Of a stretch of DNA of 43,641 nt, positions 112 through 30,103 are shown piece by piece. How positions within the stretch are numbered: the first letter of the stretch is position 1; each line of letters opens with the position of its first letter. The stretch spans positions 1 to 43,641 of the forward strand of contig NZ_JABDRI010000042.1 in assembly GCF_013041805.1 (NCBI RefSeq), in the 5' to 3' direction. The stretch is from Lutibacter sp. Its GTDB lineage: Bacteria > Bacteroidota > Bacteroidia > Flavobacteriales > Flavobacteriaceae. The notes beneath the pieces were generated by a model. It was not told the origin of the DNA, ran no database searches, and worked only from the letters and a program-made list of their open reading frames with translations. Made by a program: the position numbers and the translations under genes.

Positions 112-3100
112 ATGAAAGAAGAGAAGAAAAAATTAATTTGTGATGCGAATGAGGCAGTAGCAATTGTTGCTCACAAGACTAATGAAGTTTGCGCTATTTA
201 CCCGATCACACCAGCTTCTCCAATGGGAGAGCACGTTGATGTATACAGTGCAAAAGGACAAAAAAATATTTGGGATAATATTCCTAAAATTGTAGAAATG
301 CAAAGTGAAGGTGGTGCTGCAGGTGCTGTGCACGGTTCTCTACAAGGTGGTGCTCTTACAACTACATTTACTGCATCTCAAGGATTATTATTAATGATAC
401 CTAATATGTATAAAATTGCAGGTGAGTTATTACCATCTGTTATTCATGTTGCAGCAAGAACTGTTGCTACCCATGCGTTATCAATTTTTGGAGATCATTC
501 AGATGTTATGGCCACTAGAGCAACAGGTTTTTCTATGTTGTTTGCTGGAAATGTTCAAGAAGCACACGATTTTGCTTTAATTTCTCAAGTAGCTACATTA
601 AAAAGTAGTGTTCCATTTTTAAATATATTTGATGGATTTAGAACTTCACACGAGATTTCTAAGATTGATGCAATTCCTGATTCGGTTATCAAATCTATGA
701 TGCCAGAAGAGGAAGTAATGAAATTGAAGAAAAAATCGTTAGATTCTGACAATCCTGTAATAAGAGGTACTGCTCAAAATCCAGATGTATTTTTTCAAGC
801 ACGTGAAGCAGCAAATAATTATTATACAAAAGTTCCTGAAATTGTTCAGGATACAATGGATGAATTTTATAAGCAAACAGGAAGAAGATATAGCTTATTT
901 CATTATGTAGGACACCCTGAAGCTGAAAAAGTTGTAATAATTATGGGTTCAGGAGAAGGACCTGTTAATGAAACTGTTGATACATTAGTTGAGCAAGGTG
1001 AAAAAGTAGGAGTTTTATTTGTTCGTTTATATCGTCCGTTCTCTATAAGTGATTTTCTTGAAAGATTGCCAAAAACTGTTAAAAAAATAGCTGTTTTAGA
1101 TAGAACAAAAGAACCAGGAAGCATTGGAGAACCATTATATTTAGATGTGGTAACTGCTTTTGTTGAGATGGGAGAAACTATGCCTACAATTGTTGGAGGT
1201 AGATACGGACTTTCGTCTAAAGAGTTTACACCAGCAATGGTTAAAGGTATTTTTGATGAGTTAGACAAAGAAGAACCTAAAAACCACTTCACTATTGGTA
1301 TAAATGATGATGTCACTCATACTAGTTTAAGCTATGACCCTGATTTCAAATTAAGTAAAGATACTTTTAATTGTATGTTTTATGGTTTAGGTTCTGATGG
1401 TACGGTTGGAGCAAATAAAAACTCTATTAAAATTATTGGTGAAACAACAGATAATTTTGTACAGGGATATTTTGTTTATGATTCTAAAAAGGCAGGAGCT
1501 CAAACAGTATCTCATTTACGTTTTGGACCAGACCCAATTTATTCTTCGTATTTAATTAGCAATGCGAACTTTATAGCTTGTCACCAACCTAATTTTATTA
1601 ATGAATATGATATTTTAAAAAATATTAAAGAAGGAGGAACCTTTTTATTGAATACACCACATTCTAAATATAAAGTTTGGGCTGAGTTACCAGGTGTTGT
1701 TCAACGCAAAATTATTGATAACAATGTTGAATTTTATGTAGTTGACGCAACTAAAGTAGCCCAAGAAGCTAAATTAGGTAAACGTACAAATACAGTATTA
1801 CAAACGTGTTTCTTTGCAATATCTGGGGTTTTACCTAAAGATGAAGCTATAAAGAAAATTAAAGATGCTATTGTAAAATCATACTCTCATAAAGGAGATA
1901 AAGTTGTTGAGATGAACTTTAACGCGGTAGATAAATCTTTAGAAAATCTTCAAAAGGTTGAATATCCTCGTCATACAACAAATGAAAATGGTTTAGTACC
2001 AATGATGACTGAAAATGCCGATGATTTTGTGAAAGAAATTTTAGGAACTATTTTATCTGGTAATGGAGATTCTCTTCCAGTAAGTGCTTTCCCAGTTGAT
2101 GGAACTTTCCCAACAGGAACAACACAATACGAAAAAAGGGGAATTGCAGATTTTGTACCAACTTGGGATGATGCAGAACTTTGTACACAATGTAATAAGT
2201 GTGTAGCTATTTGTCCACACGCAGCCATTAGAGCTAAAGTTGTTTCAAACGACTTACTTGTAAACGCTCCTGATTCATTAAAACGTGTTCCAGCAAAAGG
2301 AAGACCATTTAATAGTGAAACAGAAAGTTATATTTTACAAGTTTCTCCTGAAGATTGTACAGGATGTGATTTATGTGTTGCTGTTTGTCCGGCTGAAAGT
2401 AAAGAAGTTGCAAATACGTTTGCAATTAACTTAGCTAAAAAAGCAGATGTTGAAGAAGTAGAAAATCCACATTGGGATTACTTTATTGATCTTCCAGATT
2501 ATGACAGAGCAAAATTAGTAACTTCAACTGTTAAAGGTTCACAATTCTTGCAACCATTATTTGAGTTCTCAGGAGCTTGTTCAGGTTGTGGAGAAACTCC
2601 ATATATCAAATTAGTAACTCAGTTATTTGGTGATAGTATTTCAATTGCGAATGCAACAGGTTGTTCTTCAATTTATGGTGGTAATTTACCAACTACACCT
2701 TATACTAAAAATAAAGATGGTAGAGGACCAGCTTGGGCAAATTCGTTGTTTGAAGATAATGCAGAGTTTGGTTTAGGTATGAAGCTAGCATTAGGTAAAA
2801 AACAAGAAATTGCGGTTGACCTTTTAAAATCTTTAGAAAGTAAAATAGGAAGTATTTTAGTGAATAATATTCTAGAAAATGCTGAAACTAATGAAGCTTT
2901 AAAAGAGGAGAAGTTAAACCATATTGATGAACTAAACGGAATTTTAGATACCATTGATACGTATGAAGCTAAAAAACTAAGAAATCTATCTGAATATTTA
3001 CGTAAAAAAGACGTTTGGATTTTCGGTGGTGACGGTTGGGCTTACGATATTGGTTATGGAGGTTTAGATCACTTATTCTCGTCAGGAGAAAATATCAATG

Positions 3101-3642
3101 TATTAGTAATGGATACAGAGGTATATTCAAATACAGGAGGTCAAATGTCTAAAGCTACACCACTAGGAGCAAGTGCTAAATTTGCAATGGGAGGTAAAAC
3201 AACATCTAAGAAAAGTTTAGCTTTACAAGCTGTTTCTTATGGAAATGTTTATGTAGCTCAAATAGCAATTGGAGCAAAAGACAATCAAACATTGAAAGCT
3301 ATTGAAGAAGCTGCAGCTTATCCTGGACCTTCTTTAATTATTGCATATTCACATTGTGGAGAGCACGGTTACGATTTAAAAGACGGTGCAACTCATCAAG
3401 AAAAAGCGGTAGAAACAGGGTATTGGCCTTTATTTAGATTCAACCCATTAGCAAAAAAAGGGAAGAAATTTAGATTAGACTCTAAAGCGCCTTCTGCACC
3501 ACTTGAAGAATTTATGTATACAGAAACTCGTTTTACTAGAGTTGTTAAAGACAATGCAGAGTTAGCTGCAGAGTTACTTGAGCAAGCTCAAGAACAAGTT
3601 GATGTTCAATGGGAAAGATTAGAATTATATAAAAATCTATAA
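112..3642 (+). CDS. nifJ: Pyruvate:ferredoxin (flavodoxin) oxidoreductase
   Basis: Cytoplasmic enzyme that oxidatively decarboxylates pyruvate to acetyl-CoA and CO2, passing electrons to ferredoxin or flavodoxin. At 1176 aa it is the full-length single-chain homodimeric form. Visible in order: N-terminal pyrimidine-binding domain with YPITPASPMGEH near residue 27; the gamma-type middle domain; two [4Fe-4S] motifs, CTQCNKCVAICP near residue 690 and CTGCDLCVAVCP near 749; the proximal-cluster motif ACSGCGETPY; and the TPP site around GGDGWAYDIGYGG (about 972) with NTGGQMSKATP behind it. All expected cluster cysteines are present, so it should be active. It stands alone as a single-gene unit closed by a strong terminator. 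The ATG at 112 matches the family N-terminus. It could feed electrons to ferredoxin-linked reactions and, indirectly, to the hydrogenase at 25-30 kb (inference). Confidence 0.97.
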   Translation: MKEEKKKLICDANEAVAIVAHKTNEVCAIYPITPASPMGEHVDVYSAKGQKNIWDNIPKIVEMQSEGGAAGAVHGSLQGGALTTTFTASQGLLLMIPNMYKIAGELLPSVIHVAARTVATHALSIFGDHSDVMATRATGFSMLFAGNVQEAHDFALISQVATLKSSVPFLNIFDGFRTSHEISKIDAIPDSVIKSMMPEEEVMKLKKKSLDSDNPVIRGTAQNPDVFFQAREAANNYYTKVPEIVQDTMDEFYKQTGRRYSLFHYVGHPEAEKVVIIMGSGEGPVNETVDTLVEQGEKVGVLFVRLYRPFSISDFLERLPKTVKKIAVLDRTKEPGSIGEPLYLDVVTAFVEMGETMPTIVGGRYGLSSKEFTPAMVKGIFDELDKEEPKNHFTIGINDDVTHTSLSYDPDFKLSKDTFNCMFYGLGSDGTVGANKNSIKIIGETTDNFVQGYFVYDSKKAGAQTVSHLRFGPDPIYSSYLISNANFIACHQPNFINEYDILKNIKEGGTFLLNTPHSKYKVWAELPGVVQRKIIDNNVEFYVVDATKVAQEAKLGKRTNTVLQTCFFAISGVLPKDEAIKKIKDAIVKSYSHKGDKVVEMNFNAVDKSLENLQKVEYPRHTTNENGLVPMMTENADDFVKEILGTILSGNGDSLPVSAFPVDGTFPTGTTQYEKRGIADFVPTWDDAELCTQCNKCVAICPHAAIRAKVVSNDLLVNAPDSLKRVPAKGRPFNSETESYILQVSPEDCTGCDLCVAVCPAESKEVANTFAINLAKKADVEEVENPHWDYFIDLPDYDRAKLVTSTVKGSQFLQPLFEFSGACSGCGETPYIKLVTQLFGDSISIANATGCSSIYGGNLPTTPYTKNKDGRGPAWANSLFEDNAEFGLGMKLALGKKQEIAVDLLKSLESKIGSILVNNILENAETNEALKEEKLNHIDELNGILDTIDTYEAKKLRNLSEYLRKKDVWIFGGDGWAYDIGYGGLDHLFSSGENINVLVMDTEVYSNTGGQMSKATPLGASAKFAMGGKTTSKKSLALQAVSYGNVYVAQIAIGAKDNQTLKAIEEAAAYPGPSLIIAYSHCGEHGYDLKDGATHQEKAVETGYWPLFRFNPLAKKGKKFRLDSKAPSAPLEEFMYTETRFTRVVKDNAELAAELLEQAQEQVDVQWERLELYKNL

Positions 3643-4180: not shown

Positions 4181-4211
4181 TTTGACATCCCTAAAACTTG
4201 CTGTACATTTG
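4181..4211 (+). promoter_or_regulatory. Bacteroidetes-type promoter of the GlmU-like gene
   Basis: TTTG (4181-4184, within TTTGAC) and TACATTTG (4204-4211) are separated by exactly 19 nt, an exact match to the Bacteroidetes sigma-ABfr form TTTG-N19-TAnnTTTG. Transcription would start near 4217, about 12 nt before the ATG at 4229. Confidence 0.8.
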
Positions 4212-4228
4212 CTTAAATTATTTTTGAA

Positions 4229-5404
4229 ATGAATTATATTTTATTTGATGGAACAGTTCGGAAGGCGCTTTTACCATTTACCTATACTAGGCCCGTTGCA
4301 GATATACGAATTGGAATATTAACAATTCGTGAAAAATGGGAAAAATATTTAGGTTTTACTACAACTACATTAACTGAGGAGTATTTAGAAGAAAAATACC
4401 CGATGGTAGAATTAGAAAATAATGTAATGATTAATGCTTCTTTTTTACCTACAAAAGCATTGATAAATGAAGTTAAAAAATTAAAAGAAAATCAAGCCAT
4501 TTTTAAAAATGATGAAGTTGTTGCTTTTTTTACAAAAGAGAGTCAAGAGGAAGTAAATTTTGATAATTATGAGTCAATTGATTTTGTTTTTGATGTGCTC
4601 CAAATCAAAAATACTTGGGATATCTTTTTATTCAATGATCAGGCAATTAGTGATGATTTTGAGTTATTAACTGAAGGAAGAAAATCACAACCAATACCAG
4701 AAGGTGTACAGTATATAAATAAAGCAAACATTTTTATAGAAGAAGGGGCTGAAATTTTATTTTCAGTTTTAAATGCCAGTACTGGCCCAATTTATATTGG
4801 TAGGGATACTTTAATTATGGAAGGTAGCTTAATACGCGGACCTTTTGCTATGGGGCAGCATTCCGTATTAAAAATGGGATCAAAAGTATATGGAGCAACT
4901 ACATTAGGCCCAAAATGTAAAATTGGTGGAGAAGTGAACAACGTGGTCTTATTTGGAAACTCTAGTAAAGGACATGAAGGTTATCTTGGAAATGCTGTGA
5001 TAGGTGAGTGGTGTAATATTGGTGCAGATACAAATAATTCTAACTTAAAAAATAATTATGCTGAAGTTAGATTGTGGAATTATGAAACTGAAGGTTTTGA
5101 TAAAACAGGATTGCAATTTTGCGGTTTAATTATGGGTGATCATTCTAAAAGTGCTATAAATACTATGTTTAATACGGGAACGGTAGTAGGTGTTAGTTCA
5201 AATATTTATGGAAGTAATTTTCCACGTAATTTTATCCCTTCTTTTAGTTGGGGTGGGGCATCTGGGTTTACTACTTATCAAATAAATAAGGCTTGTGAGA
5301 CAGCAAATTTAGTGATGAAGCGTAAAAATGAGTTGTTTGATGAGAAAGAACAACGTATTTTAGAACACGTTTTTGAAATTACTAAAAAATATAGAAATTT
5401 TTAA
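4229..5404 (+). CDS. GlmU-like sugar-phosphate nucleotidyltransferase, Bacteroidetes type
   Basis: A 391-aa protein of the Bacteroidetes GlmU-related family (TIGR03991-like), thought to act in UDP-GlcNAc or another nucleotide-sugar synthesis in the cytoplasm. The N-terminus, MNYILFDGTVRKALLPFTYT followed by RPVADIRIGILTIREKW, is characteristic of this family and lacks the LxxGxGTRM loop of true GlmU. From about residue 170 onward the sequence shows the hexapeptide-like pattern of a left-handed beta-helix (IYIGRDTLIMEGSLIRGPF, then GNAVIGEWCNIGADTNNSNL), as in GlmU acetyltransferase domains. It has its own close-fitting promoter and a bidirectional terminator. The real substrate cannot be decided from sequence; glucosamine-1-phosphate or GlcNAc-1-phosphate is the usual guess. 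Confidence 0.85.
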   Translation: MNYILFDGTVRKALLPFTYTRPVADIRIGILTIREKWEKYLGFTTTTLTEEYLEEKYPMVELENNVMINASFLPTKALINEVKKLKENQAIFKNDEVVAFFTKESQEEVNFDNYESIDFVFDVLQIKNTWDIFLFNDQAISDDFELLTEGRKSQPIPEGVQYINKANIFIEEGAEILFSVLNASTGPIYIGRDTLIMEGSLIRGPFAMGQHSVLKMGSKVYGATTLGPKCKIGGEVNNVVLFGNSSKGHEGYLGNAVIGEWCNIGADTNNSNLKNNYAEVRLWNYETEGFDKTGLQFCGLIMGDHSKSAINTMFNTGTVVGVSSNIYGSNFPRNFIPSFSWGGASGFTTYQINKACETANLVMKRKNELFDEKEQRILEHVFEITKKYRNF

Positions 5405-5437
5405 AAAAAATCCCATTGAATTCAATGGAATTTTTTT
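5403..5437. terminator. Bidirectional terminator between convergent genes
   Basis: The palindrome CCATTGAATTCAATGG (5413-5428) is flanked by an A-run on the left and a T-run on the right, so it can terminate both the GlmU-like gene (+) and the GIN-domain operon (-). Confidence 0.85.
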
Positions 5438-5446
5438 AATGAGCTT

Positions 5447-6172
5447 TTAATTTTTATTTATAATTGAACCAGAACCAACTGAAGTAGTTTTTTCCACACT
5501 AGGATTTCCTATGTAATAAATATTTCCTGATCCTGCAGATTTTGCTTGGATTTCCTCAATAGCATGAACTTTAACATTTCCAGAACCTGAAATTTTAGCT
5601 GTAGCTATTTTAGCAGTTAAATCATATGCATTAATATTCCCAGAACCTGCAATACTGCAATTAAATTCATCAGAATCTCCTTTTAGCGTAATATCTCCAG
5701 AACCTGCAATTGATGAACTTAGATTTTTTGTTGAAACGGCTAAGTTAAAATCTCCAGAACCAGCTAAACTTAATTTTAAATTTTTGGTATCTATAACATC
5801 ATCAGAATAAACATCTCCAGAGCCAGCAAGCGAAACCGCAGAAATATCATCAAAAGGGACTGAAATTAAAATTGTTTTAGTTCCTCTAATATTGTAACCT
5901 TTTTTAGTCTTAATTTTTAAGTCACCATTCTTTACTTCGGTTATTATATACTCCATTAAATTTTCATCAGCTTTAATAGTTATTTCACCTTCGTTTCCTT
6001 TAAATAACTTTACATCAAAAGCACCTGCTATTCCAATTTTTTCGTAATTAGAAACAGTTCTTGTTTTTGTTATAATATCACCATTTCCTTTAATTTTTTT
6101 TGTAAAGAACTGTGCATTTATATTAGTGCTTATAATAAGTAAAGCTACGATACTTGTTAGTAATTTTTTCAT
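5447..6172 (-). CDS. Secreted GIN-domain (DUF2807) repeat protein
   Basis: A 241-aa protein with an N-terminal signal peptide (KKLLTSIVALLIISTNINA, cleavage near residue 20). The C-terminal half carries seven copies of an (A/S/V)GSG(D/N/S) turn at about residues 116, 137, 156, 175, 195, 213 and 232, spaced 18-21 residues, which fits the rungs of a right-handed beta-solenoid of the 'head GIN domain' family. It is the last gene of the operon with the ECF sigma factor, 23 nt after the preceding repeat protein, and is closed by the bidirectional terminator. Location is periplasm or cell surface. Function is unknown in the family; an adhesin-like role has been suggested by name only. Confidence 0.85.
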   Translation of the reverse strand: MKKLLTSIVALLIISTNINAQFFTKKIKGNGDIITKTRTVSNYEKIGIAGAFDVKLFKGNEGEITIKADENLMEYIITEVKNGDLKIKTKKGYNIRGTKTILISVPFDDISAVSLAGSGDVYSDDVIDTKNLKLSLAGSGDFNLAVSTKNLSSSIAGSGDITLKGDSDEFNCSIAGSGNINAYDLTAKIATAKISGSGNVKVHAIEEIQAKSAGSGNIYYIGNPSVEKTTSVGSGSIINKN

Positions 6173-6195
6173 GTTGCTGTTTTGTTTATACTTTA

Positions 6196-7272
6196 TTAGT
6201 TATTTGTAAAGGTTACATTTCCGTAACTAGTTTTTATCGTAATATTACTACCTGAATTAGAAGTTCCATAGTAACCTTCATACTGGTTTGAAGAATTCTT
6301 TTTTATTTCTTTGGTGAAGGTAAACCCATTTCCATATTTCAAATTACCGTAACTCAATGAAGCATTAATATTAAATGATGTGGAAGGTTTTATACCAAAT
6401 TTTATATGTGTATAGGAAGATGAAACATCTATACTTTTAAAATTATCACCAAGCTCATTAATTTTTATAGAACCATAATCTGATTTAAAATCACCAGTAC
6501 CTCTTAATTTTTCAACAGTAGTGTGCATATAGTCACTATTTCCAACTAAATTTCCACAATCTTCAATTTTTAAATCTCCATAATCACAGCTATAATTTAG
6601 AGTGGCTACCATTTTGAATGAAATGTGTGAATAATCAGCATTTAATTTAGTTCTACCAGATCTTTCAACATGTAGTGTTGAATAATCAGCATTAATTTCA
6701 CCATCTTTCATAAAGTCAATAGTTGATTTGTTTGTGTAATCAATGTTAATTTTATTGTCAGAATTTAATAATTCGCCAATATTTAATCTTCCGTAGTCAC
6801 AATTAATTTTTGCAGCCCCTTCCAATTTATCTAAGCTAATTTCACCATAATCGTTTGAGAGATTAACATTATTAGTAATAGGCATTTTAATAGTATAATT
6901 AATTTGCATACTTACATTGTTTTTCTTCCCCCATAAATTCCAAGAACTTGAAGTTTTTTCAATAATTGTTTTCGCGGACACATTATTTGAACTTGATTCA
7001 AATTCTACATCAATTTGCTCTAAACGGTTTTTTACTTTATCCTCGTCGTCTCCATTAGTTGTAATACGAACCCTAATAGTAATTTTATTTTCGCTCCACG
7101 AAACCACATCAATGTTACCATACTTGTTAGAAATTGCTAAAGTGGCGTTATTATTTACATTAAATTCTTTTGTAATAACTTTGTTTTCGGTATATTTTCC
7201 TTCGCCACCAGTTGCAGACATTGTAAGAGGTATTAAGAAAAGAATTAATACTATTTTATACATATTTTTCAT
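6196..7272 (-). CDS. Secreted DUF4097-like beta-solenoid protein
   Basis: A 358-aa protein with a signal peptide (IVLILFLIPLTMSATG, residues about 7-22). From about residue 130 it repeats a (C/N/S)DYG or ADYS turn roughly every 20 residues (NDYGEISL, CDYGRLNI, ADYSTLHV, ADYSHISF, CDYGDLKI, SDYGSIKI), ending in SYGNVTFTNN. This gives a strand-turn periodicity typical of a beta-solenoid and of DUF4097-type proteins. Its start codon region overlaps the end of the upstream anti-sigma-like gene by 17 nt, which implies translational coupling. It has the same architecture class as the next gene downstream but a different turn motif, so the two look like diverged relatives. Likely exported; no catalytic motif is visible. 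Confidence 0.82.
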   Translation of the reverse strand: MKNMYKIVLILFLIPLTMSATGGEGKYTENKVITKEFNVNNNATLAISNKYGNIDVVSWSENKITIRVRITTNGDDEDKVKNRLEQIDVEFESSSNNVSAKTIIEKTSSSWNLWGKKNNVSMQINYTIKMPITNNVNLSNDYGEISLDKLEGAAKINCDYGRLNIGELLNSDNKINIDYTNKSTIDFMKDGEINADYSTLHVERSGRTKLNADYSHISFKMVATLNYSCDYGDLKIEDCGNLVGNSDYMHTTVEKLRGTGDFKSDYGSIKINELGDNFKSIDVSSSYTHIKFGIKPSTSFNINASLSYGNLKYGNGFTFTKEIKKNSSNQYEGYYGTSNSGSNITIKTSYGNVTFTNN

Positions 7273-7792
7273 TGTTTTGTGTTTTTAGTTGTTTTAAATC
7301 CTCTATTTGTATTAATAGACTTTGTAATACATCAATACGTTGTTGAAAATTTGAAATCATAGCGTAAATGATTCGCTTATCTTCAGTACTTTCTTTAAGC
7401 TCTAATGTAAGTTTACTGTATTGATCTTCGAGTTTGTTTATTTGTAAAAGAGCATCATTAATGAGCTGCTCAGTATCATTGTTTCGTTCATTTTCAATAG
7501 TTGCAAGTTCATTTTTGATTACTGAAACAAAATAGCTTTGAGTTTCTTGCATTTCAGGAGAAATAGTTGCTAATTCCATTCCAGAACTTGAAAATGAAGT
7601 TCCTAACCAAACCCCAAATAATAAAACTATTGATGCCGCTACTGCTACATATGAAAATAATTTAAAGTTTTTCTTTGGTGTTGTTGTTTTATTCAATCTA
7701 GCTTCAAATCTATTAAAGTGTCCAATAGAAGGTTCTTCAAGATCAAATTGATTTTCTAGATTTTTAAATATATGTTCTAAATTATCTTTCAT
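7256..7792 (-). CDS. Single-pass membrane protein, probable anti-sigma factor
   Basis: A 178-aa protein with a cytoplasmic N-terminus of about 42 residues, one transmembrane segment at about 45-66 (LFSYVAVAASIVLLFGVWLG) and an outer part of about 110 residues predicted to be coiled coil (LEDQYSKLTLELKESTED, LQSLLIQIEDLKQL). It starts 1 nt after the ECF sigma stop codon, the normal place for a cognate anti-sigma factor. It lacks an evident zinc-binding HX3CX2C motif, and I do not see a standard FecR domain, so the anti-sigma role rests on position and topology. It overlaps the next gene by 17 nt. Confidence 0.75.
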   Translation of the reverse strand: MKDNLEHIFKNLENQFDLEEPSIGHFNRFEARLNKTTTPKKNFKLFSYVAVAASIVLLFGVWLGTSFSSSGMELATISPEMQETQSYFVSVIKNELATIENERNNDTEQLINDALLQINKLEDQYSKLTLELKESTEDKRIIYAMISNFQQRIDVLQSLLIQIEDLKQLKTQNNEKYV

Positions 7793-7793
7793 G

Positions 7794-8336
7794 TTATTGA
7801 GATAAAAGTTGTCTTAATTTATTTTTTGCTCGTGATACTGTTGTTCTGCTATTTTCATAACTTATATCCATAATTTGCGCGATTTCCTCATAATCGTACC
7901 CTTCAATTAAATTAAGGGTAATTGCTACTTTGTAATTATTTTTTAGCTGTGAAACTTTGTTTAAAATATCATTAGCTTTAAGTAAATTATAATCTGGTTT
8001 CACTTCGTCTTCTTCAACTTCCTTTGGGGTTACTTTTTCAAGTGAAACAATATCTAATTTATTTTTATTTTTTAAAGCTGTTAAACTATTATTTATGACA
8101 ATTCTTTTAAGCCAAGCTCCAAAAGTTACAGTTCCGCTAAATGAATCTAATTTTGTAAACGCTGCTAAAAATGAATCTTGCATAATATCTTCTGCTTCAA
8201 AACTATCGTTTATAATTCTCAAAGCCGCATTAAACATAGCTCTATAATATTGTTTGTAAATTGTAAATTGGGCAGTTTTATCACCTCGTTTACAACGATC
8301 TAATAGTTGGTTGATATGCTGATTTTCTGTTTTCAA
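7794..8336 (-). CDS. ECF-type RNA polymerase sigma factor
   Basis: A 180-aa sigma-70 family member with region 2 at about residues 25-90 (MFNAALRIINDSFEAEDIMQ, including the core-binding acidic patch) and region 4 at about 120-178 (LNLIEGYDYEEIAQIMDISY, an HTH, followed by RAKNKLRQLL). The start is TTG at 8334-8336: an in-frame TAG lies two codons upstream and the next in-frame Met is around residue 32, inside region 2, so no ATG can give a full protein. It leads an operon with a membrane anti-sigma candidate and two secreted solenoid proteins; it may direct its own operon. The 237-nt space to lon (8337-8573) holds both promoters, but I could not assign them confidently. Confidence 0.93.
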   Translation of the reverse strand: MKTENQHINQLLDRCKRGDKTAQFTIYKQYYRAMFNAALRIINDSFEAEDIMQDSFLAAFTKLDSFSGTVTFGAWLKRIVINNSLTALKNKNKLDIVSLEKVTPKEVEEDEVKPDYNLLKANDILNKVSQLKNNYKVAITLNLIEGYDYEEIAQIMDISYENSRTTVSRAKNKLRQLLSQ

Positions 8337-23517: not shown

Positions 23518-25182
23518 TTAAGCTGTATTTTCTTCTAAATATTTTTTTGCTTTTGTAATCGCTTTAGATATATCAGGAACAATATATTTTCTTTCTATAA
23601 TCTCAAACATATTATTTTTTCTGAAACTTTTATTTAAATCAGATCCAATACCAGAAAGAATAACAAGTATTCCTCTTTCTTTAAATGTTTTAACTATTTC
23701 TTTTAAACTTTGAAAGCCTGTAGCATCAATAATTGGAACATAACGCATTCTTATTATAATTACTTTATAATATTTATTAAAAGCTGTAATTGTTTCTTGA
23801 AATTGTCTTGCAGCACCAAAAAATAAAGGACCATTTATTTCATAGAGCAACACTTCTTTTGGTAAATTTGATAATTCTTCATCAAAAAGATGTTCACCTT
23901 TTTTAATTTCAGAAGAAATATTTTTAACGTGAATAGATTCACTCATCCTTTTCATAAACATAAGGCTCGCAAGTACAATTCCAATTTCAATAGCTATAAT
24001 TAAGTCGAAAATTACTGTTAAAAAAAACGTAGTAAGTAAAATAATAATATCCATTTTATTTCCTTTTAAAATGGATTTAAATTGCCTCCATTCGCTCATG
24101 TGGTAGGCAACAACAATTAAAATACCTGCTAAGCACGACATTGGTATTAGTTTAGCATAAGGTGCAAATAATAGCATAATTGCAAGTAATATGAATGCAT
24201 GAACTATTCCTGCTATTGGAGTTCTTCCACCATTTTTAACGTTTGTTGCTGTTCTTGCAATAGCACCAGTTGCTGGAATTCCACCAAAAATTGCGGTAAA
24301 AATATTTGCGGCACCTTGTGCTACTAATTCCATATTGGAACGGTGCTTACCACCAATCATAGAGTCTGAAACAACCGCAGAAAGTAATGATTCTATACTT
24401 CCTAAAATGGCAATTGCAAATGCAGGTTGTATCAATGCTTTTACAGTCTCAAAATCTACTTTTGGGATTGAAGGCAAGCTTATACTGCTAGGAATTTCAC
24501 CATAATTACTTTCTATAGTAGCTACTGGAATATTAAAATATTGAACGATAAGAGTTGCAAGTAAAATAGCAATAATTGAACCTGGAAGTTTATTTACTAT
24601 TTTTTGAAAATACAATGTTATTAAAATGGTGGATACAGCAATTGTTACTGAGTACCAATTAATTTTACTAAAACTGTTAAAATAAACAATCCATTTATCA
24701 ATAAAATCAGCAGGTACATTTGAAATATTAAGTCCTAAAAAGTCATTTATTTGAGAAGAAAATATAATGAGTGCAATACCGCTTGTAAAACCAACAATTA
24801 GTGAGTAGGGAATAAATTTCAAATAATTCCCTAATTTAGCAAAGCCCATTATAATTATAATAAAACCAGCCATAAAAGTTGCAATGGTAAGTCCATCGAC
24901 ACCATATTGCTGAACAATTCCATAAACAATTACAATAAATGCGCCTGTTGGACCTCCAATTTGAACTCTACTTCCTCCAAAAACTGAAATAATTAGTCCA
25001 GCAATAATAGCTGTAATTATACCTTTTTCGGGGGAAACACCAGAAGCTATTGCAAATGCAATTGCTAAAGGAAGTGCTACAATTCCTACAATTAAACCCG
25101 ATAGAATGTCTTTGATTAAAGTTTCCTTAGATATTCCGTGTTTTAAAAGGGAAAACAATTTTGGAATATATTCTTTTTGCAT
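23518..25182 (-). CDS. SulP-family anion transporter with STAS domain
   Basis: Inner-membrane transporter of the SLC26/SulP family, moving sulfate, bicarbonate or another anion. About 554 aa from the ATG at 25182 (an upstream in-frame TTG is less likely). The membrane domain starts with DILSGLIVGIVALPLAIAFA and GVSPEKGIITAIIAGLI, contains GGPTGAFIVIVYG, and has the late motif GGIPATGAIARTATNVKNGG typical of SulP. A cytoplasmic STAS domain covers about residues 430-545 (VPIIDATGFQSLKEIVKTF, with the conserved Asp before Ala-Thr). It follows the hydrogenase maturation protease gene by 32 nt on the same strand, with no terminator between, so it is probably the last gene of the hox operon. Substrate not determinable. 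Confidence 0.93.
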   Translation of the reverse strand: MQKEYIPKLFSLLKHGISKETLIKDILSGLIVGIVALPLAIAFAIASGVSPEKGIITAIIAGLIISVFGGSRVQIGGPTGAFIVIVYGIVQQYGVDGLTIATFMAGFIIIIMGFAKLGNYLKFIPYSLIVGFTSGIALIIFSSQINDFLGLNISNVPADFIDKWIVYFNSFSKINWYSVTIAVSTILITLYFQKIVNKLPGSIIAILLATLIVQYFNIPVATIESNYGEIPSSISLPSIPKVDFETVKALIQPAFAIAILGSIESLLSAVVSDSMIGGKHRSNMELVAQGAANIFTAIFGGIPATGAIARTATNVKNGGRTPIAGIVHAFILLAIMLLFAPYAKLIPMSCLAGILIVVAYHMSEWRQFKSILKGNKMDIIILLTTFFLTVIFDLIIAIEIGIVLASLMFMKRMSESIHVKNISSEIKKGEHLFDEELSNLPKEVLLYEINGPLFFGAARQFQETITAFNKYYKVIIIRMRYVPIIDATGFQSLKEIVKTFKERGILVILSGIGSDLNKSFRKNNMFEIIERKYIVPDISKAITKAKKYLEENTA

Positions 25183-25214
25183 TTTAAGAAAATTAAAGTG
25201 CAAATTTAATGATT

Positions 25215-25658
25215 TTAAAAATCTAACAGTTTAAAATTAGCAATAGTTTTTGTTAAATTATTTAATGCTTTTTTAGTAAGCCCAATTTTAATATCCCAAT
25301 CATAGCCTTGAATTTTAATTAAAGTTGCAACTGGGTTTTTATTATATACAGTTTGGCATAAATTTAATATTTGATTTGGAGGAACCTCATGTGTAGAAAA
25401 AGAAACTTGTTTTGAAGCATAAATACGTTCTATCGAAAATCCATTAGGTAATGGTGATTTACAAGCATCAACAAAAACTACATTTGAATAGTTTGAAATG
25501 AGCTCTGCATCTTCAACCATTAATTGATATTTGTATACCAAATTATTTGAATTGAAATTATTTTTTTCAAGTAATTCTATGAAACTCCAACCAAGACCGT
25601 CATCTTGGCGTGTATTATTTCCTATTCCAATGATTAAGGTGTTATCTAATTTTTTCAT
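25215..25658 (-). CDS. hoxW: [NiFe] hydrogenase maturation protease (HoxW-like)
   Basis: A 147-aa endopeptidase of the HybD/HycI family that removes the C-terminal tail of the large subunit once nickel is inserted. The family motif IIGIGNNTRQDDGLGW is at 9-24. The three expected nickel-sensing residues are visible: Asp20 (equivalent of HybD Glu16), Asp64 in FVDACKS and His90 in STHEVPP. Its start overlaps the end of hoxH by 17 nt, so protease and target are translationally coupled. HoxH carries the matching uncleaved tail. Other maturation genes (hypA-F) are not in this window. Confidence 0.92.
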   Translation of the reverse strand: MKKLDNTLIIGIGNNTRQDDGLGWSFIELLEKNNFNSNNLVYKYQLMVEDAELISNYSNVVFVDACKSPLPNGFSIERIYASKQVSFSTHEVPPNQILNLCQTVYNKNPVATLIKIQGYDWDIKIGLTKKALNNLTKTIANFKLLDF

Positions 25659-27093
25659 GAATCAAATGTCCTTGGTTATCTTCTAATCGCAAAATTAATG
25701 GCATTTGTCCCAGTGCATGAGTAGCACAACTTAAACAAGGGTCATAAGCCCTAATGGACATTTCAATTTGATTTAGCATTGGTTCAGTAATTTCAAGTTG
25801 ATTACTTAATACATCTTGAGCAACAGTTCTAATGCCTTTGTTTAACGCTTCGTTATTGTGGGTTGTGGAAACAATTAAATTACATTTTGTAATTAATCCC
25901 TTATCATCAATGTGGTACTCATGAATTAAGGTGCCTCTCGGAGCTTCAATAATACCAATTCCTTTATTTCTAGGAATACCTTTCATTACTAAATCAGTTC
26001 CCATAATATCATCATCAAGTAATAATTCTTTTATTTTTTCAGCACAATGCAGCAATTCAATTAACCGAGCCCAATGTGAGTGCATGGTCATATTATTAGG
26101 TTTGTTATTGGTCTGTAGTTTAAATAGTTGTCTTTCTTTTTCAGCTAAAGGTGTATCTATGTGTGAACAAGTGTTTATTCTTGCCAAAGGTCCAACTCTA
26201 TTCCAGCCATCTTCTCTGCCATATGTTGTCATATATGGAAATTTCATATAGGACCAAGGCTCAACGGCTTCTTTAAAATGATTTCTATAATCAATATCTT
26301 CAATATTTAATAATTCATTTCCTTCAAAATCTATTGAGCGCAGATTTCCATCATATAATTCTAAAGCTCCGGTAGTTTTATCTACTATGCCTAAATGATT
26401 TGTAGGATACGATGCGAAATTATCAATCCATTCTCTATTTTCTTGATGATATTTTTTCATAAAAAGGATTACTTCTTCAGACCAAGAAATCATTGTATCT
26501 ATATTCGGGATTTGTTTTCCATTTAAAAAATAGTTACGTTCTTCATTTGTAAAAGTTTTATGCACACCACCAGGGACCGCAAGTGTTCCGTGAATTTTTT
26601 TTCCAGTTAAAGCATGAATAATTTCTTGCCCAAATTTTCGCATCAAAATTCCTTTTTTGGCAAGCTCTTTATTTTCAGAAGCTACAGCAACAATATTTCT
26701 TTTTTCTGCTGGAGCATTAATACCGAAAAGCAAATCTGGTGAGGCTAAATAGAAAAAGTGTAATGCATGAGATTGAAAAACTTGTCCGTAGTGTAATAAT
26801 TTTCTCAGTTTTGTAGCTGTGGAAGATAGATTTTTAGGATCGACACCTACTAATTGATCAATAGCTTTTGCTGCTGCTAAGTGATGACTTACCGGGCAAA
26901 TACCGCACAATCTTTGAACGAGAATAGGAACTTCCCAATAAGGATGACCTTGTATAAATTTTTCAAAACCTCTAAATTCTACTACATGCAAAAAAGCATT
27001 TTTAACAAGACCATTGTCATCTAATTGAATGGTTACTTTGCCGTGACCTTCAACACGGGTTACTGGATCTATGGTGATTTTTTTTGGTTTCAT
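25642..27093 (-). CDS. hoxH: Bidirectional NAD-linked [NiFe] hydrogenase large subunit
   Basis: Catalytic subunit holding the NiFe(CN)2CO site of a group 3d-like soluble hydrogenase. 483 aa, close to other HoxH proteins. The N-terminus ITIDPVTRVEGHGKV is typical. The L1 motif RLCGICPVSHH provides Cys63 and Cys66, and the L2 motif DPCLSCATH (451-459) provides Cys453 and Cys456. A 24-residue tail beginning ALGQM follows His459, the predicted cleavage point for the adjacent protease. GTLIHEYHIDDKG, a conserved stretch, precedes L2. Second last of the hydrogenase genes, 17 nt after the hoxU-hoxY fusion. All four nickel ligands are present, so the enzyme should be functional. Confidence 0.96.
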   Translation of the reverse strand: MKPKKITIDPVTRVEGHGKVTIQLDDNGLVKNAFLHVVEFRGFEKFIQGHPYWEVPILVQRLCGICPVSHHLAAAKAIDQLVGVDPKNLSSTATKLRKLLHYGQVFQSHALHFFYLASPDLLFGINAPAEKRNIVAVASENKELAKKGILMRKFGQEIIHALTGKKIHGTLAVPGGVHKTFTNEERNYFLNGKQIPNIDTMISWSEEVILFMKKYHQENREWIDNFASYPTNHLGIVDKTTGALELYDGNLRSIDFEGNELLNIEDIDYRNHFKEAVEPWSYMKFPYMTTYGREDGWNRVGPLARINTCSHIDTPLAEKERQLFKLQTNNKPNNMTMHSHWARLIELLHCAEKIKELLLDDDIMGTDLVMKGIPRNKGIGIIEAPRGTLIHEYHIDDKGLITKCNLIVSTTHNNEALNKGIRTVAQDVLSNQLEITEPMLNQIEMSIRAYDPCLSCATHALGQMPLILRLEDNQGHLIHEKIR

Positions 27094-27110: not shown

Positions 27111-28373
27111 TTAATCATATTTAAATTCAGGATATGGAATAGCATATTCTTCTTCAAATAATATATTCTTAACCACATTCCATATGTGATTTGAGTTTGG
27201 AGGACAACCAGGTATATGATAATCGATTTTTACGATTTCATGATTTGCATAGACTTTATTAAAAATTTTAGGGATTTCTTCGTGATTTGGAATTATAGTC
27301 TCATCTTGTTCACTTGATAAGGAGTTTTTATATGCTTCATTTAAGCATTCCTCTAATGAAATAGTATTTCTAAGTGCTGGTAAACCACCCCAAATTGCAC
27401 ATTCACCAACGGAGACTAAAATGTCACAATTTTCACGAAATGCTCTTAGCACTTCAAAATTATGTGTATTACTACAACCACCTTCAATAATACCAATATC
27501 ACAACGTTTTGTAAATTTTTTAATATCTGTAAAAGGAGATTTATTAAATTCAACTAGCTCTATTAAATCTAATAATCCTAAATCTATATCGAGCATAGAC
27601 ATATGGCATCCAAAGCAACCAGCTAATGAAGTGGTAGCCACAAGTTTTTTTTGTGTACTATTATTATTTTTATTGGTTTTAAGAAATGGGATTGTTTTTC
27701 CTGGAATACCTTGGTCAAAAATTCGATCGCCAAATGGCTTACTTAAAGATTTTCCTTTCACTAAAATGGCGCCAGTAGGACAAATTTTCATGGCATATTG
27801 AGCTTGAGATTCTGTAAGTTTCTCTTCTTGCTCATAATCAACTGATACAATTGTTTTGTTTCCTTTATTTATAAAGCTAAAAACTTTATAGCCATCATTT
27901 GTTGTAACTTCTTCAAAACATCGCTTACATTTTATACATCTGTTTTTATTTATTACTATGCGTTTTGCTTTTGCATCAATAAATCGTTCAACAAATAAAT
28001 GAGGAAAGCGTGCGGATCTAATGCCCGTTTCATAGCCTAAATTTTGCATTTGACAGTCACCACTTTTTTCGCAAGAAGGGCAAAAATGGTTGCCCTCTAC
28101 AAACATCATTTCTAAAATGGCTTTTCTTGTATCTAATAATATAGGAGTATTGACTTCAATATTCATTCCTTCTTGTACATTTAAAGTACAACCAGCAATG
28201 GCTTTTCCATTGAGTTTAACAGTACAAATTCTGCAACTACCAATAGGGTTTTGATGTTTGAAATGACATAATGTTGGAATAAATATTCCATTTTGTTTGG
28301 CAGCTTCTATAAGGTTCAGTCCTTTGTCTGATGCACAAATTCGTCCGTCTATGGTAAATGATATACGTTCCAT
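27111..28373 (-). CDS. hoxUY: HoxU-HoxY fusion: hydrogenase electron-transfer and small subunits in one chain
   Basis: A 420-aa single frame joining two normally separate subunits. Residues 1 to about 205 are HoxU/NuoG-like: a [2Fe-2S] ferredoxin site Cys36, Cys47, Cys50, Cys62; a His-Cys3 cluster from His96, Cys98, Cys101, Cys107 (GNHFCPSCEKSGDC); and a [4Fe-4S] site Cys146, Cys149, Cys152 with Cys198. A polar Asn/Lys-rich linker lies at about 232-243. Residues about 244-420 are HoxY: TSLAGCFGCHMSMLDID, IIEGGCSNTHN, SVGECAIWGG and HIPGCPPNSNHIW hold the proximal-cluster cysteines (candidates among Cys253, Cys256, Cys300, Cys325, Cys390). HoxY alone is usually about 180-210 aa and HoxU about 230-240, so neither half is badly truncated. 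The gene sits 11 nt after hoxF and 17 nt before hoxH. Confidence 0.92.
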   Translation of the reverse strand: MERISFTIDGRICASDKGLNLIEAAKQNGIFIPTLCHFKHQNPIGSCRICTVKLNGKAIAGCTLNVQEGMNIEVNTPILLDTRKAILEMMFVEGNHFCPSCEKSGDCQMQNLGYETGIRSARFPHLFVERFIDAKAKRIVINKNRCIKCKRCFEEVTTNDGYKVFSFINKGNKTIVSVDYEQEEKLTESQAQYAMKICPTGAILVKGKSLSKPFGDRIFDQGIPGKTIPFLKTNKNNNSTQKKLVATTSLAGCFGCHMSMLDIDLGLLDLIELVEFNKSPFTDIKKFTKRCDIGIIEGGCSNTHNFEVLRAFRENCDILVSVGECAIWGGLPALRNTISLEECLNEAYKNSLSSEQDETIIPNHEEIPKIFNKVYANHEIVKIDYHIPGCPPNSNHIWNVVKNILFEEEYAIPYPEFKYD

Positions 28374-28384
28374 ATCAAAGTAAT

Positions 28385-30103
28385 TTATAAGTTATTAATA
28401 ACATCATCGTATTCCTGAATGGCATTTTCCATATCAAACTCAACGTATTGATTTTCAGTAATAGGTGAGGTTTTTAAATTGAAATAATCTTTAAATTTAT
28501 CAATGGCCATGACCAACGAATTTGGAGATGTTTTACCTAATCCACAGCGGCTAGAAAGTTTAATGATGTTCGCCCATTGTTTAATTTCTTCCAGATCTTT
28601 TTCAGTTGATAACCCTCGCTCAATTTTTTTAATTTTTTCATATAAAATTTGGTTTCCTGCTCTGCATGGAGTGCATACGCCACAGGATTCTATTTTGAAA
28701 AAATTCATAAAATTCTTTTGTATTTGAAGGATGTCTCTTGATCTATTGAAAATCATGATCGAGCCTCCGCAAGCAATATCTTCTTCACAAATTTTCCTAT
28801 CAAATTCAGTAGAGTTTATGCATTCCCCTGATGGACCACTTATTTGAATGTAATAAGGTGAAAGCGCTTCACATAATTTTAATAATTCTCGAATGGTTGT
28901 TCCCCATTCAATCTCGTAAATTCCCGGTTTTGCAACATCACCAGAAATGCTTAATAGTTTTGTTCCTTTACTTTTTTGGGTTCCTATTTTTGAAATATAA
29001 GTAGTACCCAATTCTATAACTCGAGAAGCTTTAGCGAATGTTTCTACATTATTAACTATGGTTGAGTAACCTAAATATCCATTTTGAGTAGGAAAGTATT
29101 TTTGAAGCCTAGGCTCCCCACGCTTACCTTCTAATGATTCAATAAGGGCTTTTTCTTCTCCACAAATATATGCACCTGCTCCTAATTGAATTTTTATATA
29201 AAAATTAAAGTTTGGAATTCCACAAATATGGTCACCTAAAAACCCTTTATCTACAAATTTTTCAAGAGTCTTTTCTAATTTTTTCAGTAGGTATTTATAT
29301 TCGGCTCTTAAATATATGAATCCTTCTTTTGCTCCCGTAACATATGCAGAAATGATCATTCCTTCAATAATCAGTCCAGGATAATTGTTTAACAGCGCTT
29401 TATCCTTAAACGTTCCAGGTTCTCCTTCATCTGCATTGCAAATAATAATTTTTTTATCACTTTTACTTTCTTTGCAATATTTCCATTTTTGTGCTGTCGA
29501 AAAAAAAGCACCTCCACGACCAGTAAGTCCTGATTTTGAAATATTTTCTAAAATTTCTGATGCGCTATATTTTCTTATTTTTTTAAGGGAATTTCCTTCT
29601 ATGTAATTTCTGAACAACATAGTTTTCTCTTCTGAAGGAGTGTATTGTATTTTACTTATAAAAGAACTTGAAATAGTAGCTAACTTTTCATCTTCTTTTA
29701 ATTGTTTAATTATTGTTTTAACCTTTTTCACAGTTAAATTAGTAAAAGGATAAAAATTAATTAACGCAGCTGGTTCCTGGTCACTTAATCCTATACAAGA
29801 GGTTTCAAATAATGAAAAAAGAGGATTTTCATCATATTCGTTAAATGTACACCCTGTTTCTTTTTCAAATGCGGCTTTTATATATTGAAAGCCTTTAAAT
29901 TCTGAAATGATGCTGTTATTTAGATAAATAATGAATTTTCCTGTAGGTTTTTGATGGAAAAAATGATAAAAACTAATAACCCCTTCTATATCTAATATTG
30001 AAACTTTAAGAGATTTAGCAATTTGAGTGATTGCTCTTTTTGAGATATATCCGTGTTTATTTTGATATTCCCAAAGTTCGTTTAATAGGTTAGTTCTATT
30101 CAT
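28385..30103 (-). CDS. hoxF: Hydrogenase diaphorase subunit HoxF (NuoE-like + NuoF-like)
   Basis: The NAD(H)- and FMN-binding subunit of the bidirectional hydrogenase, 572 aa, similar in layout to Ralstonia HoxF. Residues 1 to about 140 are thioredoxin-like NuoE-related (SFYHFFHQKPTGKFIIY), but the cluster cysteines are gone: the first pair is replaced in YLNNSIISEFKG, and only Cys103 of the second pair remains (TSCIGLSDQEPA). Residues about 155-572 are NuoF-like: FMN site GLTGRGGAFFSTAQKWKYC (192-210), ICNADEGEPGTFKDKAL, NADH region LGAGAYICGEEKALIES, and the [4Fe-4S] site Cys474, Cys477, Cys480 (ESCGVCTPCR) with Cys520 (SSRCGLG). First gene of the operon; a 14-bp palindrome lies just upstream. 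Confidence 0.95.
   Translation of the reverse strand: MNRTNLLNELWEYQNKHGYISKRAITQIAKSLKVSILDIEGVISFYHFFHQKPTGKFIIYLNNSIISEFKGFQYIKAAFEKETGCTFNEYDENPLFSLFETSCIGLSDQEPAALINFYPFTNLTVKKVKTIIKQLKEDEKLATISSSFISKIQYTPSEEKTMLFRNYIEGNSLKKIRKYSASEILENISKSGLTGRGGAFFSTAQKWKYCKESKSDKKIIICNADEGEPGTFKDKALLNNYPGLIIEGMIISAYVTGAKEGFIYLRAEYKYLLKKLEKTLEKFVDKGFLGDHICGIPNFNFYIKIQLGAGAYICGEEKALIESLEGKRGEPRLQKYFPTQNGYLGYSTIVNNVETFAKASRVIELGTTYISKIGTQKSKGTKLLSISGDVAKPGIYEIEWGTTIRELLKLCEALSPYYIQISGPSGECINSTEFDRKICEEDIACGGSIMIFNRSRDILQIQKNFMNFFKIESCGVCTPCRAGNQILYEKIKKIERGLSTEKDLEEIKQWANIIKLSSRCGLGKTSPNSLVMAIDKFKDYFNLKTSPITENQYVEFDMENAIQEYDDVINNL

Follow-up and report, generated by a model that had tools for sequence, protein, structure and literature searches.

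The window analysed here, 43,641 nucleotides of contig NZ_JABDRI010000042.1 of a Lutibacter sp., encodes on its minus strand a [NiFe]-hydrogenase whose HoxU and HoxY subunits form a single chain. From the domains, cluster ligands and trees described below, we consider it quite probable that this enzyme is of the SH type (group 3d-like), is coupled to NAD(P) and is composed of three chains, HoxF, the fused HoxUY and HoxH, its modules stapled together by a fusion of one origin. The kind of enzyme is known; the fused chain is new, widespread and apparently unremarked. To our knowledge, no natural HoxU-HoxY fusion has been described, and the full-text literature searched, which included few subscription journals, yielded neither a description of one nor a characterised fused enzyme.

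Four genes form a tight operon on the minus strand, in the order HoxF, HoxUY, HoxH and HoxW-type protease. The hoxF gene (28385..30103, 572 aa, identified by its domains, alignment and structure match) encodes a HoxE-like part joined to HoxF. After a gap of 11 bases comes hoxUY (27111..28373, 420 aa, with its ATG at 28373 and its stop at 27111-27113), and 17 bases further hoxH, the [NiFe] large subunit (25642..27093, 483 aa, identified by its motifs, PF00374 and a match to 5xf9_D). The latter overlaps by 17 bases the gene of a HoxW-type hydrogenase maturation protease (25215..25658, 147 aa, also on the minus strand), which reaches 66.6 bits with TIGR00072 and exceeds the cut-off of 47.45. The gene set HoxF, HoxUY and HoxH claimed in the original prediction is therefore present as an operon; the joining of a HoxE-like part to HoxF was missing from that three-chain picture. 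A TonB-dependent receptor is encoded upstream of the operon, and a SulP-type transporter of the sulfate permease family (23518-25203) after the protease gene. At another locus (L007, 11198-12859) a protein much like this transporter is likewise encoded after the protease gene, so that it is possibly a conserved neighbour of the hydrogenase operon. The same window also encodes a pyruvate:ferredoxin (flavodoxin) oxidoreductase of 1176 aa (112-3642).

The hoxUY frame is open throughout on the minus strand, a strand that had not been named before, and the plus-strand frame of 27111-28373 is full of stops. Using Pfam, the HoxU-type domains Fer2_4, NADH-G_4Fe-4S_3 and Fer4_Nqo3 were detected above their gathering scores within residues 2-203. 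Oxidored_q6, a HoxY-type domain, also exceeded its gathering score, at residues 253-402, and no further cluster domain was found by Pfam beyond residue 205. The HoxU part (residues 1-220, 27714..28373, minus strand) matches chain B of 5xf9 (residues 5-224 against 12-232, E 1.8e-38, 135.7 bits), its best solved match being 7t2r_A (residues 1-210, 139.6 bits). The HoxY part (residues 242-420, 27114..27650, minus strand) has chain C of 5xf9 as its best solved match (residues 13-189, E 1.4e-48). The two halves thus match two separate chains of one NAD-reducing hydrogenase, which, with the 420-aa frame and the Pfam domains, bears out the claim that HoxU and HoxY share one frame.

Twelve ligands of the HoxU part (C36, C47, C50, C62; H96, C98, C101, C107; C146, C149, C152, C198) and four of the HoxY part (C253, C256, C325, C390) are invariant among the 58 aligned relatives. 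On the model of the NuoG and HoxY families, we take the former to hold one [2Fe-2S] and two [4Fe-4S] clusters, one of these with a His ligand, and the latter, placed by established knowledge of HoxY, to hold a single [4Fe-4S] cluster. All 16 expected ligands (16/16) are thus found among the invariant columns, in the order predicted. Between the two parts lies a linker (residues 221-241, 27651..27713, minus strand) without an in-frame ATG, polar as had been proposed and variable in sequence, its length being nearer 21 residues than the 12 or so first put forward. The NCBIfam model for the HoxU equivalog of bidirectional hydrogenases, PRK07569.1, scores 165.8 bits, under its cut-off of 333, and the AlphaFold2 model of HoxUY built from the 58-sequence alignment is weak (mean pLDDT 64.2, pTM 0.45).

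The trees fit a single origin of the fusion, with separate-gene enzymes as the sister group. We collected 127 distinct HoxH rows, comprising 80 fused, 43 separate and 4 without a HoxU match. Near-copies were left out of both HoxH trees, and the smaller one also excluded the rows lacking HoxU, L167 and L133, the latter called separate only through a weak HoxU match of 25%. The HoxU frame of L120 is short, and the loci L169 and L170, which hold hyp genes from pHG1, were left out. In the careful HoxH tree of 69 rows (31 fused, 38 separate), one branch splits the fused from the separate forms with a support of 100/99, and the split is recovered in 100% of 200 bootstrap trees. The same split is obtained in a quick HoxH tree of 96 rows (SH-aLRT 99) and in a tree of the HoxU part only (65 rows, 98/94). 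It is weaker in the 65-row tree of the HoxY part only, where the support of 89/66 is under the starred level and the split occurs in 90% of the bootstrap trees. A HoxH tree had been proposed as a check of whether the fusion is a single clade, and the fused forms do make one. Rooted on the cyanobacterial-type rows, they form a clade inside the SH-type side. It is because of this root that the change would run from separate to fused genes, as trees alone do not tell gain from loss.

To see how the junction may have formed, we compared its length in 30 of the 35 separate pairs and in 83 of the 85 fused proteins. The HoxU tail after the CPxG motif spans 28-42 aa in all 30 separate pairs measured (31-36 in 24 of them), and a HoxY start codon lies 12-13 aa ahead of GCxGCH in 25 of the 30. 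The distance from CPxG to GCxGCH in the 83 fused proteins has a median of 51 aa and a range of 47-77, with 82 values between 47 and 56 and a single one of 77. The latter is the longest linker of the 83 and carries a run of NDNG-like repeats (L038, 4634-5977). The fused tails are about 5 residues longer than both free tails combined, which means that the linker consists essentially of these two tails. The two fused proteins missed by the junction motif, L081 and L082, were read by eye; they branch off first among the fused forms of the 96-row HoxH tree, and both contain KYDxxPIS, to be compared with KYDxxPIGSDIE in free HoxU tails. In 9 of the 30 separate pairs measured, the HoxU stop is in the frame of HoxY, so that the loss of one stop could yield a fusion. 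A check at the level of bases placed 8 of 13 junctions in frame (L149, L150, L168, L152, L154, L119, L122 and L158). At other junctions, such as that of Ralstonia eutropha, where hoxU and hoxY overlap by 4 bases, a change of frame would be needed as well. On our reading, the fusion arose once by end-to-end joining of adjacent genes, probably through loss of the HoxU stop in a shared frame, and was then passed on by inheritance, spreading through Bacteroidota and into some neighbouring groups.

HoxU belongs to the diaphorase module (HoxFU) and HoxY to the hydrogenase module (HoxHY). In the enzyme proposed here, electrons would pass in either direction from the Ni-Fe site of HoxH to the [4Fe-4S] cluster of HoxY, the clusters of HoxU, the [4Fe-4S] cluster and FMN of HoxF and NAD(P)(H). 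The fusion would staple the interface between diaphorase and hydrogenase, so that neither would form free, and since it lies at the HoxU/HoxY interface, free diaphorase in particular should not form in the fused lineage. It may also hard-wire the flow of electrons and alter subunit stoichiometry, as put forward in the original prediction. Dissociation of this kind is documented for separate-chain enzymes: in the excerpts available, the Synechocystis HoxEFUYH is described as readily dissociating into HoxEFU and HoxYH (PMC7363133) and the R. opacus SH as easily dissociating in vitro (PMC3189943). That module stapling is what selection kept is a guess, to which we give somewhat less than an even chance. 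About equally likely, in our view, is that the fusion is neutral, a chance stop loss between neighbouring subunits fixed once and unopposed by selection. The linker, little beyond two joined free tails and variable in sequence, speaks for neutrality, as do several sister junctions that are one stop loss away from fusion. So does the stability of the separate-chain heterotetramer of R. eutropha, described in part of PMC3189943, which indicates that the tetramer can be stable without any staple. However, no split form occurs among the best 80 of 109 relatives, a ranking biased to fused forms, or among the 28 whole-length matches of the genus, and the linker length is kept narrow (47-56 aa in 82/83); these points argue against neutrality but do not prove selection.

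It is unlikely that free HoxY or HoxU is produced as well, through an internal start or cleavage of the linker. Cleavage in the polar, variable linker is plausible, a GTG codon lies 7 residues ahead of GCFGCH in the window, and some ATG, GTG or TTG occurs 8-25 residues before the motif in 39 of the 83 fused proteins. Against this, the other 44 have none of the three codons in that stretch and ATG is found in only 21, so an internal HoxY start is not conserved and was rejected (62/83 without ATG 8-25 residues before the motif).

HoxF carries Complex1_51K and NADH_4Fe-4S above their cut-offs, including the FMN/NAD(H) domain, with C474, C477, C480 and C520 as [4Fe-4S] ligands, and no domain after NADH_4Fe-4S was found by Pfam. 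Its thioredoxin-like, HoxE-like part most likely carries no cluster, since C103 is its sole invariant Cys (66/66); C85 occurs in 23/66. HoxF of R. eutropha likewise lacks the [2Fe-2S] cluster N1a, according to an excerpt of PMC3189943. HoxH contains RLCGICPVSH and DPCLSCATH, is over the cut-off of PF00374 and over no NCBIfam cut-off among the 11 matches listed; its C-terminal tail is presumably removed during maturation. Its best solved match is 5xf9_D (E 6.3e-155), with 7t2r_D second, and that of HoxF is chain A of 5xf9. In the HoxH tree, R. eutropha (L093) falls on the side of the fused forms and Acaryochloris on the opposite side of a fully supported branch, L093 being a long branch whose exact place is unsure. 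The enzyme thus has the large and small subunits, truncated NuoG-like HoxU relay, HoxF and HoxH grouping of the SH type (group 3d). Separate HoxU and HoxY chains, a usual trait of characterised SH-type enzymes which we treat as usual and not as defining, are found neither here nor in the fused clade. In an enzyme of this type NAD(P) would be the partner, and the complex would consist of three chains.

A HoxE with [2Fe-2S] ligands, as in the cyanobacterial type, is absent. HydB of bifurcating enzymes has an added Fe-S region; neither this region nor the C-terminal cluster part of HydA was found. That the enzyme is not simply NAD(P)-coupled, using ferredoxin or bifurcating like HydABC or NiFe-HydABCSL, was judged decidedly unlikely on its domain make-up, although the HoxU part scores highest with HydA (7t2r_A, 139.6 against 135.7 bits for 5xf9_B), HydB and NfnB are among the solved relatives of HoxF, and 7t2r_D comes second for HoxH. 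HoxF, HoxY and HoxH all match best the non-bifurcating 5xf9, HoxF has no domain beyond its [4Fe-4S] region, most cluster ligands are gone from the HoxE-like part, and the C-terminal part of HydA is missing from HoxUY.

The distribution of the fusion was examined by scanning the genomes of 84,980 species. This gave 109 relatives, ranked against the fused query, and we retained the top 80. HoxU and HoxY share one open frame in all 80 (78 complete; L032 and L080 cut by a contig end), and because of this ranking they show the fusion to be common, not universal. Titles of 14 of the 80 name organisms not marked as MAG or uncultured. Whole-genome searches, counting matches at E 1e-50 or better, found HoxUY in 29 of the 38 Lutibacter genomes (28 whole-length without a stop, 1 from a contig edge) and in 14 of 299 of the family. 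That an assembly or sequencing error deleted a stop and a start, the refutation named in the original prediction, has a negligible probability and was ruled out, the frame being open in the 80 relatives, including the 14 not titled as MAG or uncultured, and whole-length in 28 of the 38 genus genomes. The suggestion that other Bacteroidetes would share the fusion was borne out by many Bacteroidota. In a phylum sample of 395 genomes, the full fused form was found in 7, with at least 57% identity, and HoxU and HoxY as separate, close-by matches in at least 16. One genome of this sample (G120) has, among the matches listed, one match with an internal stop; it groups, together with G135, one of the genomes with separate matches, with the separate-gene enzymes in the 96-row HoxH tree.

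Fused operons were also observed in MAGs titled Acidobacteria (L053, 8001-9254) and Planctomycetaceae (L076, 4840-6105). HoxH was above thresholds in 67 of 297 genomes of the titled phylum of L053 and in 24 of 294 of that of L076. Inspection of HoxU and HoxY in 27 and 21 of these, respectively, found them fused only in the starting loci; in 8 of the 21 no HoxU match lies beside HoxY. Both are nested among Bacteroidota in the 96-row HoxH tree, L053 as the sister of a genome from the family to which the window belongs and L076 within a group of Saprospiraceae- and Lewinella-type rows. Composition did not show misbinning of L053, with a locus G+C of 0.58 against 0.587-0.599 in five further stretches from that genome, one of them on the contig of the locus; L076 has 0.516 against 0.491-0.532 in four other stretches, one on the same contig. 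The two operons may result from transfer or from misbinned contigs. Pseudomonadota were sampled through plasmids only.

Some Lutibacter loci carry additional copies of these genes. Two full hoxF genes stand in tandem before one hoxUY-hoxH in nine loci (L007, L008, L011, L018, L020, L024, L026, L028 and L029, at about 4200-7990). The copy adjoining hoxUY reads GAAS in 7 of the 9 and the other copy GAET in 8 of the 9, the motif not being found in the rest; single-copy HoxF reads GEET or GEES in 42 of 53, and the window GEEK. We take this stretch to be part of the nucleotide pocket, and it is a guess that its change would alter nucleotide specificity. It is rather unlikely, though conceivable, that HoxUY-HoxH is an indivisible core and HoxF alone exchangeable, these loci then providing one core with two pyridine-nucleotide heads of differing specificity. 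Elsewhere, hoxF-hoxUY-hoxH occurs twice (L017, 1400-10728), or hoxF-hoxUY precedes hoxF-hoxUY-hoxH (L025, 2894-10732; L027, 2817-10732), the extra HoxUY of L025 and L027 having no HoxH of its own within the stretch.

The genome of the window also encodes, on another contig, a second [NiFe] large subunit beside a small subunit whose start is twin-arginine-like (L181, 245-4463). This enzyme looks membrane-type, with what by eye resembles a cytochrome b and with hypD nearby, the latter indicating maturation capacity on a contig other than that of the hoxUY operon.

The role of separate HoxEFU is named as an open question in Hox enzymes in the portion available of PMC7363133, and comparing fused with split enzymes would test the purpose of module dissociation. 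Recycling of NAD(P)H driven by H2, in which subunit loss can be a weakness, is a use for which a stapled SH of three chains would be a practical candidate; a surplus of HoxF has been reported, with loss of integrity suggested as one cause (PMC12809855, in part). Annotation by gene list can hide the fusion, as it may for a Cyclobacteriaceae MAG for which hoxF, hoxU, hoxY and hoxH are reported in an excerpt of PMC12942990.

Among known systems, the NAD-reducing soluble hydrogenase of Hydrogenophilus thermoluteolus, HoxFUYH (5XF9/5XFA), is the best solved match for HoxF, the HoxY part and HoxH and the second for the HoxU part. It resembles the present enzyme in having no separate HoxE, but its HoxU and HoxY are two chains instead of one. 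HoxFUYHI2 of Cupriavidus necator (Ralstonia eutropha) H16, encoded on plasmid pHG1, has the same order hoxF-hoxU-hoxY-hoxH-protease, and its HoxH is 48.9% identical over 99%. There, hoxU and hoxY are separate CDS, whereas they are fused here, and the protease gene is followed by a gene with a cyclic-nucleotide-binding domain, which we take to be HoxI, in place of the SulP transporter. Its HoxF is also a HoxE-like/HoxF fusion, without the [2Fe-2S] N1a, as described in part of PMC3189943. The nearest separate relatives found, SH-type enzymes in the titled phyla of L053 and L076, reach at most 62% identity in HoxH and 59% in HoxY, and have a HoxU stop before HoxY, some of them with a shared frame. 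The cyanobacterial HoxEFUYH has the same functional parts, but with a separate HoxE, whose cluster ligands are mostly missing here, and its HoxH lies across a fully supported branch.

The electron-bifurcating NiFe-HydABCSL of Acetomicrobium mobile (7T2R) has related parts, and no solved chain matches the HoxU part better than its HydA. Its small subunit is separate, however, and its HydA has a long C-terminal part, bearing a further cluster, which is missing here (PMC8880783, in part). Finally, a HoxU-like Fe-S region is likewise found at the N-terminus of [FeFe]-hydrogenase HydA and of the alpha subunit of NAD-type formate dehydrogenase, joined there to a catalytic part which is an H-cluster or a molybdopterin domain, respectively, and not a [NiFe] small subunit. 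Both are encoded with such a region in the genome of the window (HydA, L002, 355-2148; formate dehydrogenase alpha, L003, 1-2148, cut in the locus). The joining of relay to catalytic module is hence a recurring plan, of which HoxUY is the [NiFe] small-subunit version.
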